DNA from: Bacteroidales bacterium
GTDB lineage: Bacteria > Bacteroidota > Bacteroidia > Bacteroidales > P3
Direction of reading: 5' to 3'
Assembly (NCBI GenBank): GCA_028709955.1
Contig: JAQUTD010000005.1
Coordinates: forward strand, 1-37,900
DNA length: 37,900 nucleotides
The position numbers and the translations under genes are program-made. A model generated the notes under the pieces. It saw only the letters and a program-made list of their open reading frames with translations, did no database searches and was not told where the DNA came from. Positions within the stretch are counted from its first letter, which is position 1, and each line of letters starts with the position of its first letter. Below, one piece after another: positions 14,561 to 37,813 of this stretch.

Positions 14561-14628
14561 TCCAAGCAATAGGAATTCAAATAAAGAGAAATAGTAGTAT
14601 AGTAAAATAGACTTAATATATTTGAAAT

Positions 14629-14704
14629 TATATCAAGGAAAAAAATATTTATATCAAGGAAAAATTCTTTTTTATCAAGGAAAAAAATATTTTTAGTTGA
14701 TATA
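14629..14704. repeat. Phased intergenic repeat array C (TATCAAGGAAAAA core)
   Basis: Three exact 21-bp units begin TATCAAGGAAAAA at 14631, 14652 and 14673; units 1 and 3 differ almost only at their last base. An inverted core copy, TTGATATA, is at 14697-14704. The core is nearly the same as that of array D1 (TTAAGGAAAAA), including the stretch between units. It lies between the outer-membrane protein stop and the lipoprotein promoter region, both on the minus strand. Confidence 0.85.
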
Positions 14705-24384: not shown

Positions 24385-24494
24385 TTATCCTTAATCTATT
24401 TCAAAATAAGTTAAGGATAAAAAGATTTTTATTAAGGAAAAATTCTTTTTTATTAAGGAAAAAAGTTTTTTTATTAAGGAAAAATTTTGAGTAA
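24385..24494. repeat. Phased intergenic repeat array D1 (TTAAGGAAAAA core)
   Basis: Four consecutive 21-bp units start TTAAGGA at 24411, 24432, 24453 and 24474. An inverted core TTATCCTTAA (24385-24394) is an exact reverse complement of the first ten bases of unit 1. The core is related to that of array C. The array lies in the 488-bp non-coding gap between two convergent transcription units. Confidence 0.87.
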
Positions 24495-24615: not shown

Positions 24616-24693
24616 GATTCTGTTTACCTATCTCTTGATTCTAATTTCCTATCTCTTGATTCTATTTTCGTAGAATCAAATTCTAATTTCACT
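24616..24693. repeat. Phased intergenic repeat array D2 (TTGATTCTA core)
   Basis: Units of exactly 21 bp start GATTCT at 24616, 24637 and 24658, with a degenerate fourth at 24679 (AATTCTAATTTC). Units 1 and 2 share 18 of 21 bases. An inverted copy TAGAATCAA at 24671-24679 pairs with the third unit to give a 7-bp hairpin with a 6-nt loop. It is about 120 bp after array D1 but has an unrelated core. Confidence 0.82.
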
Positions 24694-31165: not shown

Positions 31166-34100
31166 TTATTTTACTTCAACAATTTCAGAAGATATTTGAG
31201 ATTCATTGAAGTTTACAAACCATAGGTAGGATTGTATTTTATTAAAGCCTATTTGTTTTATTAATTGCTCGTAGGTCTTTATTTGAGAAGAATATTGATT
31301 TATGTTTTTCTTTGTTTTGGCAAATTTATAATCAACTAAGATTATATCATTGTCTTTTGTTATCATTAGCCTATCGGGACGTTTGGTTGTTATTTGTCCT
31401 TCCTCTTTTATAATAATATCTATTTCGTTCAAAATCTTATTTCCTAAAGAGAACCAAACGGATGCTTGTTCTGTGGAGAGCATTTGTTCAACAATACTCT
31501 TATAATAGTCTTTTTCGGGTTTTACTATCTCTCCTTTTTGAGCTGAGGTTTCAATGGTTTTTTCTATATCTTGTTTTGTATTTATTTTTGAAAGGAGATT
31601 ATGAAGGATAATTCCTTTTTGTCGTGGTGAGGATTCTTCCTTTTCATCGTTTTTAAGTGCACTAATAAATTCTTTGGCTTGTCTGGTTTGAGAGTATTTT
31701 ATTTGAGAGTCAAGAAAACTCGATTGAAGTGGAATTGAGTTTGGAGTTATTTTGAAGATATTTGTTTGTTCTGTCGTTGAGGTGTTTAGTTGTTTAGTTG
31801 TTGTTTCTGTTTGCTCTTCTGATTCTATACAATAATTATATTCCATTTCTCCCTCTTGATTTGTTTCTTCTTTTAGTTGCTTATTAAGTGCTATGTAGAG
31901 GAATTTTGAAATATTATCAATGTGTTTTAAATCTATTCCGTCTTTGTTTTGATTAAGTTGTCCAATAATTGACAAAGAATGTTTTGGTCTTGTTAGGGCA
32001 ACATAGAGAAGGTTAAGATTATCTACAAATTGTTGTAGCTGCTCGTCAAGATATTCTTGATGATAAAAGGAATTGTTTAGTGAATAGTTCTTGGATAAAA
32101 GGGTTGGAATGGTTGAATCTAATTTATTTTCATTTAACCATAGCTCTGTTTCGGAACTAAATTTCCAATTAGCATAAGGAATAATGACTACTGGAAATTC
32201 CAATCCTTTTGATTTATGAATTGACAAAAGTCTTATTCCTTCGTAATCATCGTTTATTATTATTTTTTTTGTTTGTAAATCTTCCTCCCAATAGTTTAGA
32301 AATGCAGTAAGGTTGGATGAGTTGTTTTTAGTGTATTCTTGCACCTGGTCTAAGAAAGATGTTATAAAAGAAAGTTCATTTGCATCTTTGTCTATTTGTA
32401 GTTGTTTAATTATATGTACTGTTAAATCGAAAAGTGGTTTTCTTAGAATTTCTTTTTTAGATATCCATTCTAATTCTTGAGGTATTTTTAGAGATTGGTT
32501 TACATCTTGAAGTGCTTTATCATCTTTATATATGTATCTTTTCAAGTTAAACAATGATACGGTATTTTCTTTATTGTTTACGTATTTCAAAGCATCAATA
32601 ATTAATCTAATGCTTTGTGAATACATATAACTAAACGCCATATCAGAAACAATACTATAGTTTTGCCCAGAAAGATAATCTGCGACAAGGCTTACTTGAG
32701 CATTTGTTCTTAAAAGAATAGCAATATCTTTTGGAGAGTATCCTTTTTCTAAGTGATAATCTATCTCTTGCTTTAATGTATTTAATGTCCTTTCTTCAAA
32801 ACTTCCTCTTTTGCCAACCAATAATTCCACTCTTATGTTACCTGATTGAGGTGAATTTGGTTTTGTTTCTTGCGATGCATCTGAGAATACTCCTTTAATT
32901 TGATTTATTCTTTCTTTATCAAGCTCTTCAATATTTTCACATAAAAGGTTTAAACCTTGAGAAAACAGATTATTATTAAACTCAACAATGTTTTTATCGG
33001 TTCTATAATTTGTTTTTAATGTTTCAATATTTGGAATTCTTGGATTGGATGATGATTCCTCGTAGGATATTCCTTTATCAATATTGTTTAATATTCTCCA
33101 GTCTCCATTTCTCCAACGATAAATTGATTGCTTCACATCTCCAACAATAACATTCCTTTGTCCCCTATCCAAACTCTCCAAAACCAAAGGAGAAAGTGTT
33201 TTCCAATTTAAAAGAGATGTGTCTTGAAACTCATCAATCATAATATACTTAATCTTAGAGCCTATCTTCTCATAGATAAAAGATATATCTGAATTATTAT
33301 CCAAACGAATTATGTCCGATAACAATTTTGAGGTGTTAGAAAGCAAGAACTTATTCTCTTCTTTCAAAATATCATCCCTATGATTAGCAATATTCTTTAA
33401 AAGACCTATATTATCAATAAAAGGGAGAACTGCTTGCCATGTTCTTAACTCTTGATTGCAATTATCAAAATATTCAAAATACTCATTAAGAAGAGGGATT
33501 AGAGTATTATTAACTAAATCTGCCCTACTTGAACGATTAACAGAATCACTAAACCATCCTTCAACTCCCTCAATTGCTTTAAAATAATAACCCTTATCTC
33601 TAAAATCAAATTTCTCCTTACTAATTCCCAAAAGAGCATTAGCAATTCCCCTTGTTTTTCCGGCAAAATCATTAACCGTAAGCCCATTTTCTTCAAAAAT
33701 CTTTGCAAACCTATCCCCATAAGCAATCAAACTCTTCTTAATCTCAACCAATTTTCCATTCCCTTTTTGCTTAAATTGGCTTAAGACCTCCTTATCCAAA
33801 GTTTTAATTTCAGACTCAAAACGCTTAAAAACCTCCTTATCCAAATTTCTGCTAAAATCAATCAATTCCTTTTCAACATTCACCCTTTTTCCTTCCTCAA
33901 CCCTCGAATCAATCATATCCATATACCAGTCATACAAAGCCTTATCCTTATCGGTGGAAGAAATCACCCTTTCAATAGTTTCTTTTATTATATCCGAGTC
34001 ATCAATAATCAAATTATAATTAGAACCAATCCCAAGCTCCTTTGCCAAATTACGCATAACCTTTTGTAAGAAAGAGTCAATGGTTTGAATATTGAAATTA

Positions 34101-34411
34101 GAATAATCGTGAAGTATGTTTTCTAAAGCCTGCGATGCTTTTTCTTGAATGATGTTGGAGTCCATTGCTGAATTTCTCTTACATAAAGCTTCAAAGAAAT
34201 CTGTTTTCTCGCCAATCTTTATACCATAAAGCTCTTTTAAAATCCTAAGTTTCATTTCTGAGGTAGCCTTATTGGTGAAAGTAACGGCAAGAATATTACT
34301 ATAAGATTTAGTATCCTTAATTAGCAAACTAACATATTCCAAAACCAAATTAAAGGTTTTACCACTTCCAGCAGAAGCCTTATATACAACAAGATTAGCG
34401 TTAACTGACAT
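31166..34411 (-). CDS. AddA/RecB-like UvrD-family helicase-nuclease
   Basis: A 1081-aa superfamily 1 helicase with C-terminal nuclease. Helicase motifs: Walker A ASAGSGKT (12-19), ILAVTFTNKAT (about 40-50), Walker B MIDEFQDTS, GDVKQSIYRWR, RLLSIHKSKGLEFPVVI and YVALTRPKHSL. The nuclease core near the C-terminus shows RPDRLMITKDNDIILVDYKFAK. With the AddB-like protein it should unwind and resect double-strand breaks to feed RecA. ATG 34411 is supported by a -7 box just upstream. A decayed copy of its first 199 nt sits at 37656-37813. Confidence 0.92.
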   Translation of the reverse strand: MSVNANLVVYKASAGSGKTFNLVLEYVSLLIKDTKSYSNILAVTFTNKATSEMKLRILKELYGIKIGEKTDFFEALCKRNSAMDSNIIQEKASQALENILHDYSNFNIQTIDSFLQKVMRNLAKELGIGSNYNLIIDDSDIIKETIERVISSTDKDKALYDWYMDMIDSRVEEGKRVNVEKELIDFSRNLDKEVFKRFESEIKTLDKEVLSQFKQKGNGKLVEIKKSLIAYGDRFAKIFEENGLTVNDFAGKTRGIANALLGISKEKFDFRDKGYYFKAIEGVEGWFSDSVNRSSRADLVNNTLIPLLNEYFEYFDNCNQELRTWQAVLPFIDNIGLLKNIANHRDDILKEENKFLLSNTSKLLSDIIRLDNNSDISFIYEKIGSKIKYIMIDEFQDTSLLNWKTLSPLVLESLDRGQRNVIVGDVKQSIYRWRNGDWRILNNIDKGISYEESSSNPRIPNIETLKTNYRTDKNIVEFNNNLFSQGLNLLCENIEELDKERINQIKGVFSDASQETKPNSPQSGNIRVELLVGKRGSFEERTLNTLKQEIDYHLEKGYSPKDIAILLRTNAQVSLVADYLSGQNYSIVSDMAFSYMYSQSIRLIIDALKYVNNKENTVSLFNLKRYIYKDDKALQDVNQSLKIPQELEWISKKEILRKPLFDLTVHIIKQLQIDKDANELSFITSFLDQVQEYTKNNSSNLTAFLNYWEEDLQTKKIIINDDYEGIRLLSIHKSKGLEFPVVIIPYANWKFSSETELWLNENKLDSTIPTLLSKNYSLNNSFYHQEYLDEQLQQFVDNLNLLYVALTRPKHSLSIIGQLNQNKDGIDLKHIDNISKFLYIALNKQLKEETNQEGEMEYNYCIESEEQTETTTKQLNTSTTEQTNIFKITPNSIPLQSSFLDSQIKYSQTRQAKEFISALKNDEKEESSPRQKGIILHNLLSKINTKQDIEKTIETSAQKGEIVKPEKDYYKSIVEQMLSTEQASVWFSLGNKILNEIDIIIKEEGQITTKRPDRLMITKDNDIILVDYKFAKTKKNINQYSSQIKTYEQLIKQIGFNKIQSYLWFVNFNESQISSEIVEVK

Positions 34412-34465: not shown

Positions 34466-34589
34466 AAGCAAAGAAGTAAACTCAAGAATATTAGCTATAA
34501 GTGTAGATTTTAGAAAACCTCAAGACACACTAAAAAAAAGAACAAAAAAATAAAGATTTGAAATAAATGTATCTAACCCTTATTATATT

Positions 34590-34770
34590 TTAATTAAATC
34601 AAGTAAAAATTTAGTAAGGTGGCAGGTTACCGACAGTAACCTGCCACCTTACACACAACATCCTGCCACCTTACTTATAACATCCTGCCACCTTACTAAA
34701 TTTATTCTTGATTTAAATAAGTTTTTTCTTCATTTAAGCAGATTTATATCTTGTTTAAATTAAAAATAAT
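34590..34770. repeat. Nested phased repeat array E (two cores)
   Basis: Two cores in the order a'-b'-b-b-b-a-a-a. Core b is CTGCCACCTTAC: inverted at 34614-34629, direct at 34637, 34659 and 34681 (22-bp steps). Core a is CTTGATTTAA-like: inverted at 34596-34603, direct at 34707, 34728 and 34750 (21-22 bp steps). The inverted b copy makes a 17-bp perfect stem with a 5-nt loop with the first direct copy. The whole left arm (34596-34626) also pairs with 34684-34714 at 29 of 31 positions, so alternative structures compete. Confidence 0.88.
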
Positions 34771-35232: not shown

Positions 35233-37263
35233 ATGAAAAAACAATTAATAATTAGCTCAATGGTCACCCTTTCCATAATATTTCTCTTTAATCTTTCTCT
35301 TCATTCACAAGGAGATTGGCAATGGGCAAGGTCTTTTACAGGATATGATGGATCAATTACCTATCTACCCAATAATATTACTCGTAGCGTTTTTGACAGT
35401 TATGGGAATATATATATTGCTGGTAACATTGGTGATGATGTAAAATTTAACAATCAAGAACAATTATCAACCGATCCAAAAATGAGAAATTCAGGTTTAA
35501 TTTTAGCTAAACTTGATAATAACGGAAACCTTTTATGGAGAAAAACTATTAGGAGTACTGAATGCATATCTAATACTTATTGGATGGATATTGTTGGAGA
35601 TACTTCAATTGTGCTTTTTGCCAATAGTTACGGTCCGAAAGAAAGTGAAGATTCGTTGTTGTATTTAGATACTTTAATTGTTGGTTTATCGCCCAATCCC
35701 ATACTCAACAAAATGCCAAAAGGAGGATTGGATTGTTTTATTAGTTTTGATTTGAACGGCAATAAACAAAATGAAGTTTTTATTCAACACAAACAAATTT
35801 ATACTCAAGGAAATGAATCGGATTATCAAATATTTGAGGCTATTTCTACAATTCCATTCGTAATAGATTATTATGGTAATACATATTTTTGTGTCACGCC
35901 ATTTATTCCTCAAAAAATGGATACCTTAAAATTACTTATTAATAACAACAAAGAATATAGTTACAAAGTAGGAGATATTCAAGATAATGCTTTTATGTTA
36001 AAATTTAATTCAAATTTTGATTTAATATGGATAAAAGAAATAATAAAGGATACTTTTTGTCTTGGAGATGGAAATTCTTCATTAATTTTCAATCCAGAAA
36101 TTTCAAGTATTTCTAAGGACAATGATAAAGACAATTGTATTTATTTGACTGGAGCTATTCAAAAAGTAAGAGAATCTGACACAAATTTCTATATGGAGAT
36201 GGATTTGGGTTCTAATCAGAAGTTAAAATTTAATGATATAGGATGGGGAAGTGTTGGTTTTACTATAAAATATGATAGCTCAGGTAATGCTGTTTGGGCA
36301 AATCAAATCTATGGAGAAAAAAGATTTTACCCTATTACACCATCATTTTATAACTATTCAACAAGTGTAGTAAATTCAAAGATAAATCAAACAAATGAAT
36401 ATTTATACATAATTGGAGAAGCTGGATATTGTACATCTTATTCACAAAATGGAGAAAGAATAATTGACACAACAGCTTTTAAACTATTTTTTGATGATAG
36501 CACTCAACTTATACTTGAAATAGACTCTCTCTCCGATTATACAACTTCTAATGTTTTCTTTGCTAAACTAAACATTCAAACAGGTAAATATATTTCTCAT
36601 GGAAAAATAAAATGCAATTTGAAAAATAGTAACATTTACCAAAACGACATACCAATTATTTTACATAATAATCAAGTTTTTACTCATGCTTTTTATTGGG
36701 GCTACCTAAACGGAGTTAGAGAGAATTATTATATAGGTAAAGGAAGAGCTGGACTTGCACTTGTAAGATGGAAAGAAAACGGTGAATTGATAGAAGCAAT
36801 TAATATACCTGTTTATAATGATATAAGTAGTGTTCATTCTGGAAATGCTATACTTAGAAATAATGGAGATTTATTTGTAACAGGAACGTATAAAAAAAAT
36901 ATTACCTTTGGAGATAATGTACTAAGCGGAAGTAATGCTTGGGCAAATGTTTATATGGCAAAATATAATGATATCAGCTTTGTTCACCCTTACGGAATCG
37001 GAATTGAAAGTATTTCTACAAATAAAGGAGAGAACCTATTGATTTACCCTAATCCAACAAAAAACATTGTAAATATTGAATCAAAAGGAGAAATAATAAA
37101 CTCCTATACATTATATAATATTGGAGGACAAACAATAATTAAGAGTGAAAAGTTAAAAGTGAAAAGTGAAAAGTTAGATCTTTCCAATCTTCCCAAAGGA
37201 GTATATATTATAAAAGTAAGAACCGAAAAGAATGTTTATTCTCATAAGGTAATTAAAAACTAA
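35233..37263 (+). CDS. Secreted protein with T9SS type A sorting domain
   Basis: A 676-aa exported protein. Signal peptide about 1-26 (LSLHSQ). The body has several blocks of the form (F/Y)D(S/N)xGNxYIAG and KLDNNGNLLWRK, i.e. SBBP-like beta-propeller repeats (DWQWARSF, FMLKFNSNFDLIWIKE, ILRNNGDLFVTGTYKKNI). Residues ~595-676 are a type A sorting domain (LLIYPNPTKNIVNIES, NLPKGVYIIKV, SHKVIKN). A Lys/Ser insertion, KSEKLKVKSEKL, within this domain is encoded by a short DNA repeat. Likely an outer-surface or secreted protein; ligand unknown. Confidence 0.92.
   Translation: MKKQLIISSMVTLSIIFLFNLSLHSQGDWQWARSFTGYDGSITYLPNNITRSVFDSYGNIYIAGNIGDDVKFNNQEQLSTDPKMRNSGLILAKLDNNGNLLWRKTIRSTECISNTYWMDIVGDTSIVLFANSYGPKESEDSLLYLDTLIVGLSPNPILNKMPKGGLDCFISFDLNGNKQNEVFIQHKQIYTQGNESDYQIFEAISTIPFVIDYYGNTYFCVTPFIPQKMDTLKLLINNNKEYSYKVGDIQDNAFMLKFNSNFDLIWIKEIIKDTFCLGDGNSSLIFNPEISSISKDNDKDNCIYLTGAIQKVRESDTNFYMEMDLGSNQKLKFNDIGWGSVGFTIKYDSSGNAVWANQIYGEKRFYPITPSFYNYSTSVVNSKINQTNEYLYIIGEAGYCTSYSQNGERIIDTTAFKLFFDDSTQLILEIDSLSDYTTSNVFFAKLNIQTGKYISHGKIKCNLKNSNIYQNDIPIILHNNQVFTHAFYWGYLNGVRENYYIGKGRAGLALVRWKENGELIEAINIPVYNDISSVHSGNAILRNNGDLFVTGTYKKNITFGDNVLSGSNAWANVYMAKYNDISFVHPYGIGIESISTNKGENLLIYPNPTKNIVNIESKGEIINSYTLYNIGGQTIIKSEKLKVKSEKLDLSNLPKGVYIIKVRTEKNVYSHKVIKN
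37144..37176 (+). repeat. AGTGAAAAG short repeats inside the sorting domain
   Basis: AGTGAAAAG occurs at 37144, 37158 and 37165, with AGTTA between or after. In frame it encodes the KSEKLKVKSEKL stretch of the T9SS domain. Confidence 0.7.
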
Positions 37264-37362: not shown

Positions 37363-37813
37363 TTATTTCTTCATCCCGTTGTTTTTCAAAACTGCATCAA
37401 TTAAAGGTTGTTTTCCTCTGAAACGAACATACATATTCATTGCTTCATCGGTACTTCCTTTTGAAAGTATTTCGTTTTTAAATTTATCGGCAGTTGTTTT
37501 ATCAAAAATATCTACTGCTTCCAAGAAAGTATTAAATGCATCCACATCCAAAACTTCTGACCATACATAAGAATAGTATCCAACAGCATATTCTCCACTA
37601 AATACATGTGAGAAATAAGTTGAACGATAGCGTGGAGGGATTTGAGAGATTAAAACAATCTTTTTACCATAAAGCTCTGTTAAGATTCTAAGTTTCATTT
37701 CTGCAGTAGCCTTATTGTTGAAAGTAAATGCAAGAATATTCCAAAATCAAATTAAAGGTTTTACAACTTACGGCAGTAGCTTTATAAACTACAAGATTGT
37801 TTTAATTAATCAT
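37363..37813 (-). pseudogene. Chimeric remnant: addA 5' end joined to M3 peptidase 3' end
   Basis: Reading leftward on the minus strand, 37813-37656 is a copy of the first 199 nt of the addA-like gene with a 41-bp deletion (between AATAT direct repeats) that shifts the frame, an early stop (codon 4) and a ruined P-loop (ASAGSGKT has become ATAVSCKT). At about 37655 it switches to the last ~95 codons of an M3-family peptidase (oligopeptidase A / Dcp type): IPPRYRSTYFSHVFSG, GYYSYVWSEVLDVDAF, ILSKGSTDEAMNMYVRFRGK. The ORF-track entry 37363-37698 starts at a Met inside the addA part and lacks the HEXXH zinc site, so no functional product is expected. Confidence 0.85.

Follow-up and report, generated by a model that had tools for sequence, protein, structure and literature searches.

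Classical HU proteins bind DNA with little sequence specificity and are usually treated as near non-specific packaging proteins. Plasmid iterons and partition operator arrays consist of direct repeats about two helical turns apart, adjoin AT-rich DNA and lie near the gene for their binding protein. The MatP-matS, Noc and ParB-parS systems each pair one chromosomal DNA-binding protein with dispersed palindromic sites that are single and short. The HU-HIG family (PF18291, HU/IHF fold) was reportedly found to be expanded in Bacteroidetes by Burroughs et al. in 2017, who are said to have proposed a role against invasive DNA. We know of no report of palindromic arrays cognate to HU-HIG, and searches of open-licence papers turned up no case in which many HU paralogues are each paired with private arrays. 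HU paralogues, phased operator arrays and dispersed intergenic minisatellites are each known kinds of element.

The BrickBuilt element of Porphyromonas gingivalis is present as 19 dispersed intergenic copies made of imperfect 23-nt tandem units, the number of which varies between strains; its arrays reach up to 22.8 units, have IS5-type terminal repeats and use one word only, and one copy (BrickBuilt_14) adjoins a gene whose annotated product is a DNA-binding protein of HU type, PF00216 (PMC4596501).

The array described here lies in the window, the stretch of 37,900 nucleotides from a Bacteroidales bacterium that was analysed as a whole. It resembles BrickBuilt in occurring in Bacteroidales as dispersed intergenic tandem units of varying number, but BrickBuilt is much longer, whereas here many words per genome share one pitch, lack such terminal repeats and are enriched before HU-HIG genes. 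With iteron and partition arrays it shares direct repeats spaced by about two turns, beside AT-rich DNA and near the gene of a (here candidate) binding protein, and it departs from them in that many proteins with different words occur per genome and the arrays are scattered chromosome-wide. Unlike the MatP, Noc and ParB sites, the arrays are multi-unit and the candidate protein is one of many HU-fold paralogues. This candidate partner in the window's genome, here named HigT, is a full-length member of PF18291 (79 bits against a cut-off of 26). We interpret the window array as a dispersed, word-specific and helically phased putative binding array for HigT, and we give this reading a probability of about 62%.

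Anatomy of the array upstream of addA

The array (34578-34770) is intergenic and comprises several near-palindromic words at a pitch of 21-23 bp, namely four 17-bp units with a 22-bp pitch set inside AT-rich 21-bp units. The features of the region are the following:

31166-34411, minus strand: UvrD/AddA-like gene, neighbour of the array
34578-34613, no strand: left AT-rich flank, with the words CCTTAT (34578-34583) and inverted ATCAAG (34598-34603), then an AAATTT junction (from the sequence)
34614-34630, minus strand: unit 1, inverted, GTAAGGTGGCAGGTTAC (from sequence, arm pairing and motif count)
34636-34652, plus strand: unit 2, GTAACCTGCCACCTTAC, exactly complementary to unit 1 (from sequence, arm pairing and motif count)
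34658-34674, plus strand: unit 3, ACATCCTGCCACCTTAC, 22 bp past unit 2 (from sequence and motif count)
34680-34696, plus strand: unit 4, ACATCCTGCCACCTTAC, 22 bp past unit 3 (from sequence and motif count)
34697-34770, plus strand: right AT-rich flank, with CTTGAT (34707), CTTCAT (34728) and CTTGTT (34750) in a 21-22-bp register with the units
35233-37263, plus strand: gene with a T9SS sorting tail, neighbour of the array
37363-37788, minus strand: remnant of two fused genes, in which an N-terminal piece of AddA carrying two stops runs into the C-terminus of an M3 peptidase

The core CCTGCCACCTTAC occurs at 34614-34626 on the minus strand and at 34640, 34662 and 34684 on the plus strand. With up to two mismatches, four matches were found in the 37.9 kb against 0.19 expected, a number reached by 0 of 100 shuffles, and a chance origin of the array is excluded. 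Its half-sites are GTAACCTG and GTAAGGTG, which the first unit joins in reverse order.

Unit positions and motif count bear out the nested array that the first-pass annotation had placed upstream of addA. The perfect 17-bp stem it described is exact (34614-34630 with 34636-34652, 5-nt loop), and the longer stem, given there as 29 of 31 bp, proved slightly better, with 34 of 37 positions paired (arms 34590-34626 and 34684-34720). The array does lie between the divergent addA-like and T9SS genes; the gene remnant said to be beside it is instead found behind the T9SS gene.

The same annotation had read the order of the arms as a possible switchable hairpin or a record of stepwise duplication, and the two halves of this reading fared differently. 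Among 61 copies from seven genomes the arms show no covariation specific to a locus, the outcome that the annotation had named as refuting the hairpin: complementarity of arms from the same locus was 13.5 of 22, compared with 13.7 of 22 for arms swapped between loci within species (p = 0.81), a result confirmed per segment. The first unit has the ordinary orientation in 44 of the 61 elements and is inverted as in the window in five. The competing-cruciform design is not conserved among sister copies. Short-range R/Y dyad covariation within units is significant in these copies, but since neighbouring units share letters it is inseparable from duplication and is no proof of structure. Stepwise duplication survives, because units duplicate singly: an array has 2-5 units, and its orthologues depart from it in length by one complete unit at a time.

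Dispersal, pitch and exchange of array words

The window's word occurs at seven places in its own draft genome. Several of these coincide with the end of a contig, and the repeats thus seem to break assembly. Between 18 and 52 tandem matches were found in each of six other species of the genus, none in four, and essentially none in other genera; the relatives with the word are the Bacteroidales MAGs UBA4893, UBA4866, UBA5515, CTSoil_023, STF2_138 and Go_Prim_bin_146. Among 60 genomes across the phylum the window's own genome was the sole carrier. As many as four species share an array copy at the same orthologous site. A phage or plasmid origin is rejected, as the word had no match in 2.9 million viral contigs or in 72,556 plasmids. 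The window array is a member of a chromosomal family scattered through intergenic DNA. A variant that shares the core of the word was seen in two Prevotella MAGs, where 22-bp arrays (L038, L074, L079) read CTTTCCTGCCACCTTTCTCCCA and differ in the arms; the fetched DNA around them held no HU-HIG gene.

The orientations of the genes flanking the arrays are mixed (-- 19, +- 15, -+ 12, ++ 10), which argues against a simple promoter or terminator role, and this role was rejected. A polar, KOPS-like chromosome motif was likewise discarded on the strand of the arrays relative to GC skew (24:31) and to gene strand (26:29), as were phased A-tracts, for which the signal at lags 10 and 11 was absent.

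The pitch is strict. In a search of 611 kb of the genus over all periods from 12 to 60 and with no seed, all 45 intergenic tandem arrays repeated every 21-23 bp or at twice that period (the shuffled control gave one hit in five replicates, 0.2 per replicate), and the coding arrays in the same DNA mostly showed multiples of three. Per Mb of intergenic DNA, array density falls from 506 in the genus to 270 in the family, 97 in the order and 48 in the phylum. In the 61 elements of the window's family the unit spacing is 22 bp in 166 cases and 21 bp in 14, of which 12 belong to one spacer type, and units diverge by 18% on average. The AT-rich flanks of the sister copies have a 21-bp periodicity of their own: in 50 of the 61 the first flank word has an offset of 10, and successive words are spaced by 21 bp in 87 of 110 cases. 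Words differ between arrays, the significantly palindromic ones being associated with a pitch of 22-23 bp and the AT-rich ones with 21 bp; palindromy of the latter is not significant, and they may therefore be another class. Other gaps of the window contain further 21-bp arrays (14622-14690, 24420-24485 and 24630-24690, with TATCAAGGAAAAAAATATTTA, TTATTAAGGAAAAATTCTTTT and ATCTCTTGATTCTAATTTCCT).

At one orthologous site a whole word can be exchanged for another. Upstream of addA, CCTGCCACC is found in the window's genome, AAAGATGYGCATCTTT in three relatives, and an array of GATGTACATC together with an HU-type gene in two more. Upstream of dprA, with flanks aligned, G010 has a TGCCA array, both G006 and G002 have a TACGA array, and G008 has neither. 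At this site (L282, L284) GGTACGACC/GGTCGTACC stands in place of CCTGCCACC between conserved flanks, and in G008 the array block is missing and the right AT-rich units are kept. The EtfA locus proved unusable as a clean empty site, as a neighbouring gene differs.

HU-HIG genes, their upstream words and HigT

HU-HIG genes number 5-42 in most array-rich genomes and 1-3 in most others, the window's genome having 13, five further species of the genus 21-24 and the three g2 genomes 28-42. Arrays were seen in 14 of the 17 genomes with at least five copies and in 6 of the 29 with fewer (p = 6e-5), at densities of 0.57 and 0.09 per intergenic kb, respectively, these genomes being related and the correlations thus not independent. 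Exceptions occur on both sides: G054 has 23-bp arrays and one HU-HIG gene, G047 (12 copies) has no arrays in 20 kb, and G003 (23 copies) has none in its sampled contigs.

The association also holds at the level of single genes. A palindromic array lies upstream of 16 of 43 HU-HIG genes (drawn from several genera) compared with 13 of 451 other genes (drawn from the genus only; OR 20, p = 2e-11), and a 20-24-bp array found by either detector lies upstream of 28 and 48 of them, respectively. When genes with free upstream DNA were scored identically, a palindromic array of ~22 bp preceded 27 of 41 HU-HIG genes and 22 of 102 others (p = 1.3e-6); HU-HIG genes lacking such DNA, mostly the later genes of a tandem, had an array in 2 of 23 cases. 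HU-HIG operon heads tend to have several palindromic words, mostly 3-5, with a 22-23-bp pitch, mostly ~115-290 bp upstream.

The word differs between HU-HIG genes, examples being TATAATGCCATTATA, ACGAAATGGCATTTCGT, ATCATGGCATGAT (L314), AAAGATGTGCATCTTT, CTAACGTCGTTAG, CTTATGCCATAAG, TAAGTCTGACTTA (L342) and, in a genome of another family (G059), GCTGTCAGCTGACAGC. Word similarity tracks protein similarity, being 0.61 for pairs with at least 55% identity and 0.44 otherwise (0 of 200 permutations), with some words misassigned by the automatic caller. Orthologous HU-HIG genes share words, and several paralogue pairs of ~60% identity have related words (partly by reading). By eye, four HU-HIG genes of G010 that have no nearby array (L308, L312, L313, L315) share a motif resembling AACCTCGCGATGATATAGGGTTAATCG, placed 20-40 bp ahead of the start codon, which may be a control element of a second type.

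The window's word precedes one HU-HIG orthologue, by ~165-185 bp, in its own genome and in four relatives. In the window's genome this is higT (G000:C42:13654-14055), and the word, CCTGCCACC flanked by GTAA/TTAC, is found ~168 bp upstream at G000:C42:14221 (L036), where a contig end cuts the array and leaves one unit visible. The distance is 164-173 bp in G010, G006 and G002 (L045, L052, L093) and ~185 bp in G008. Of 82 arrays of the word counted in the DNA examined, four are gene-linked, all at HigT, and the rest are dispersed.

Word and HigT orthologue occur together in G000, G002, G006, G008 and G010, and G001, G003 and G009 have no intact pair. The match is imperfect: the word is repeated many times in G004 and G005, which have no HigT orthologue above 37% identity, and G007 has a higT that is 99% identical to that of G010 over 462 bases (G007:C16:32628-33089) but no arrays of the word. 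The similarity ends ~17 bp before the start codon, which suggests that the coding sequence moved and its array was left behind. An apparent HigT remnant with five stops is found at G009:C53:2875-3021, in a genome that has no CCTGCCACC arrays.

By Pfam, by profile and by a confident model HigT has an HU/IHF fold. Its family profile matches HU/IHF entries in the PDB (E 1e-11), and the alignment-based model (pLDDT 91), used in place of a poor single-sequence model (pLDDT 36), has BVU_2165, HU and IHF as its best structural matches and includes an additional N-terminal strand pair. No close relatives of HigT were found in viral contigs, and only distant HU-like matches were retrieved from three plasmid and four phage records.

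A predicted HigT complex and competing explanations

Heads of HU-HIG operons tend to carry their own palindromic words, the same word being repeated as intergenic arrays elsewhere regardless of gene direction. HigT dimers are predicted to bind one dyad after the next, perhaps cooperatively; spaced by two helical turns, they would line up along a single face of the DNA, and this occupancy would build a bent or wrapped nucleoprotein complex. The complex may autoregulate higT, and HigT may nucleate the same complex at remote loci for chromosome organisation, silencing or marking of the cell's own DNA. The arrays would evolve by duplication of units and replacement of whole blocks between copies.

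Strong predicted folding of the array strand (z-score -6.7 to -8.4) and the perfect 17-bp stem with its longer alternative speak for a cruciform or RNA hairpin that switches and so controls addA or the divergent gene next to it. Arm covariation is nevertheless absent, the inverted unit is present in few copies, arrays occur alike in divergent, convergent and co-directional gaps, and relatives have other words upstream of addA, which makes this explanation very improbable; known RNAs gave only sub-threshold Rfam matches. Less improbable, though still unlikely, is a neutral by-product, in which duplications of about two turns and small palindromes arise preferentially through slippage or template switching and the arrays have no function. 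It agrees with arrays that grow and shrink by units, with the likeness of neighbouring units and with random gene orientation and strand, yet the spacing leaves 22 bp only for 21 bp despite the divergence of the units, array density in intergenic DNA is much lower outside the family, and the enrichment of arrays before HU-HIG genes would go unexplained.

Somewhat ahead of the neutral account, and also doubtful, stands a non-autonomous mobile minisatellite, a BrickBuilt-like MITE with the array as cargo or body, which would spread and replace words by transposition or conversion, its placement before HU-HIG genes being secondary. The dispersed, intergenic, repeated units with leader- and tail-like flanks recall the P. 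gingivalis element (PMC4596501), and the dprA site, with either of two words or neither depending on the species, is what such an element could produce. Against it, BrickBuilt-like terminal repeats (GAGACCTTNGCA / TGAAAGGTCTC) are absent near the array, where GAGACCTTNGCA had no match within two mismatches and the count in the window equals chance. Viral contigs and plasmids gave no match, and copies persist at orthologous sites. RAYT transposase is lacking in most array-rich genomes (no Y1_Tnp, PF01797, in the array-bearing G002, G005, G006, G008 and G010), and REP/BIME elements with RAYT were also rejected. The strict pitch across unrelated words and the link to HU-HIG would remain unexplained by mobility. 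Judged on the repeats alone, a CRISPR is not indicated (units imperfect, spacers of 4-5 nt that recur between loci), nor, judged on the arrays alone, are plasmid iterons or a replication origin (many dispersed chromosomal arrays, no plasmid match).

A paralogue-specific palindromic array before HU-HIG genes, repeated chromosome-wide, gives each protein a predicted target, and such arrays would explain a class of mostly unannotated intergenic repeats that break metagenome assemblies. Should binding be confirmed, many HU paralogues paired with arrays private to each would constitute a new kind of system. More tentatively, the sequences may point to a many-channel nucleoid code, a reading we think somewhat less probable than its negation, in which some Bacteroidales would have ~10-40 HU-fold paralogues, each binding phased arrays of a palindromic word of its own, both ahead of its gene and at sites scattered elsewhere. 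Each gene would diverge together with its word, and words would be exchanged at orthologous sites, perhaps as self/non-self or chromosome-domain labels; such a code, if true, would be categorically new.

An intact M3 peptidase gene precedes addA in G007 and G001. The window's intact addA shares 93% identity with that of G010, against only 80% for DprA and EtfA; the window's addA was therefore probably acquired from a relative, with the native copy decaying.
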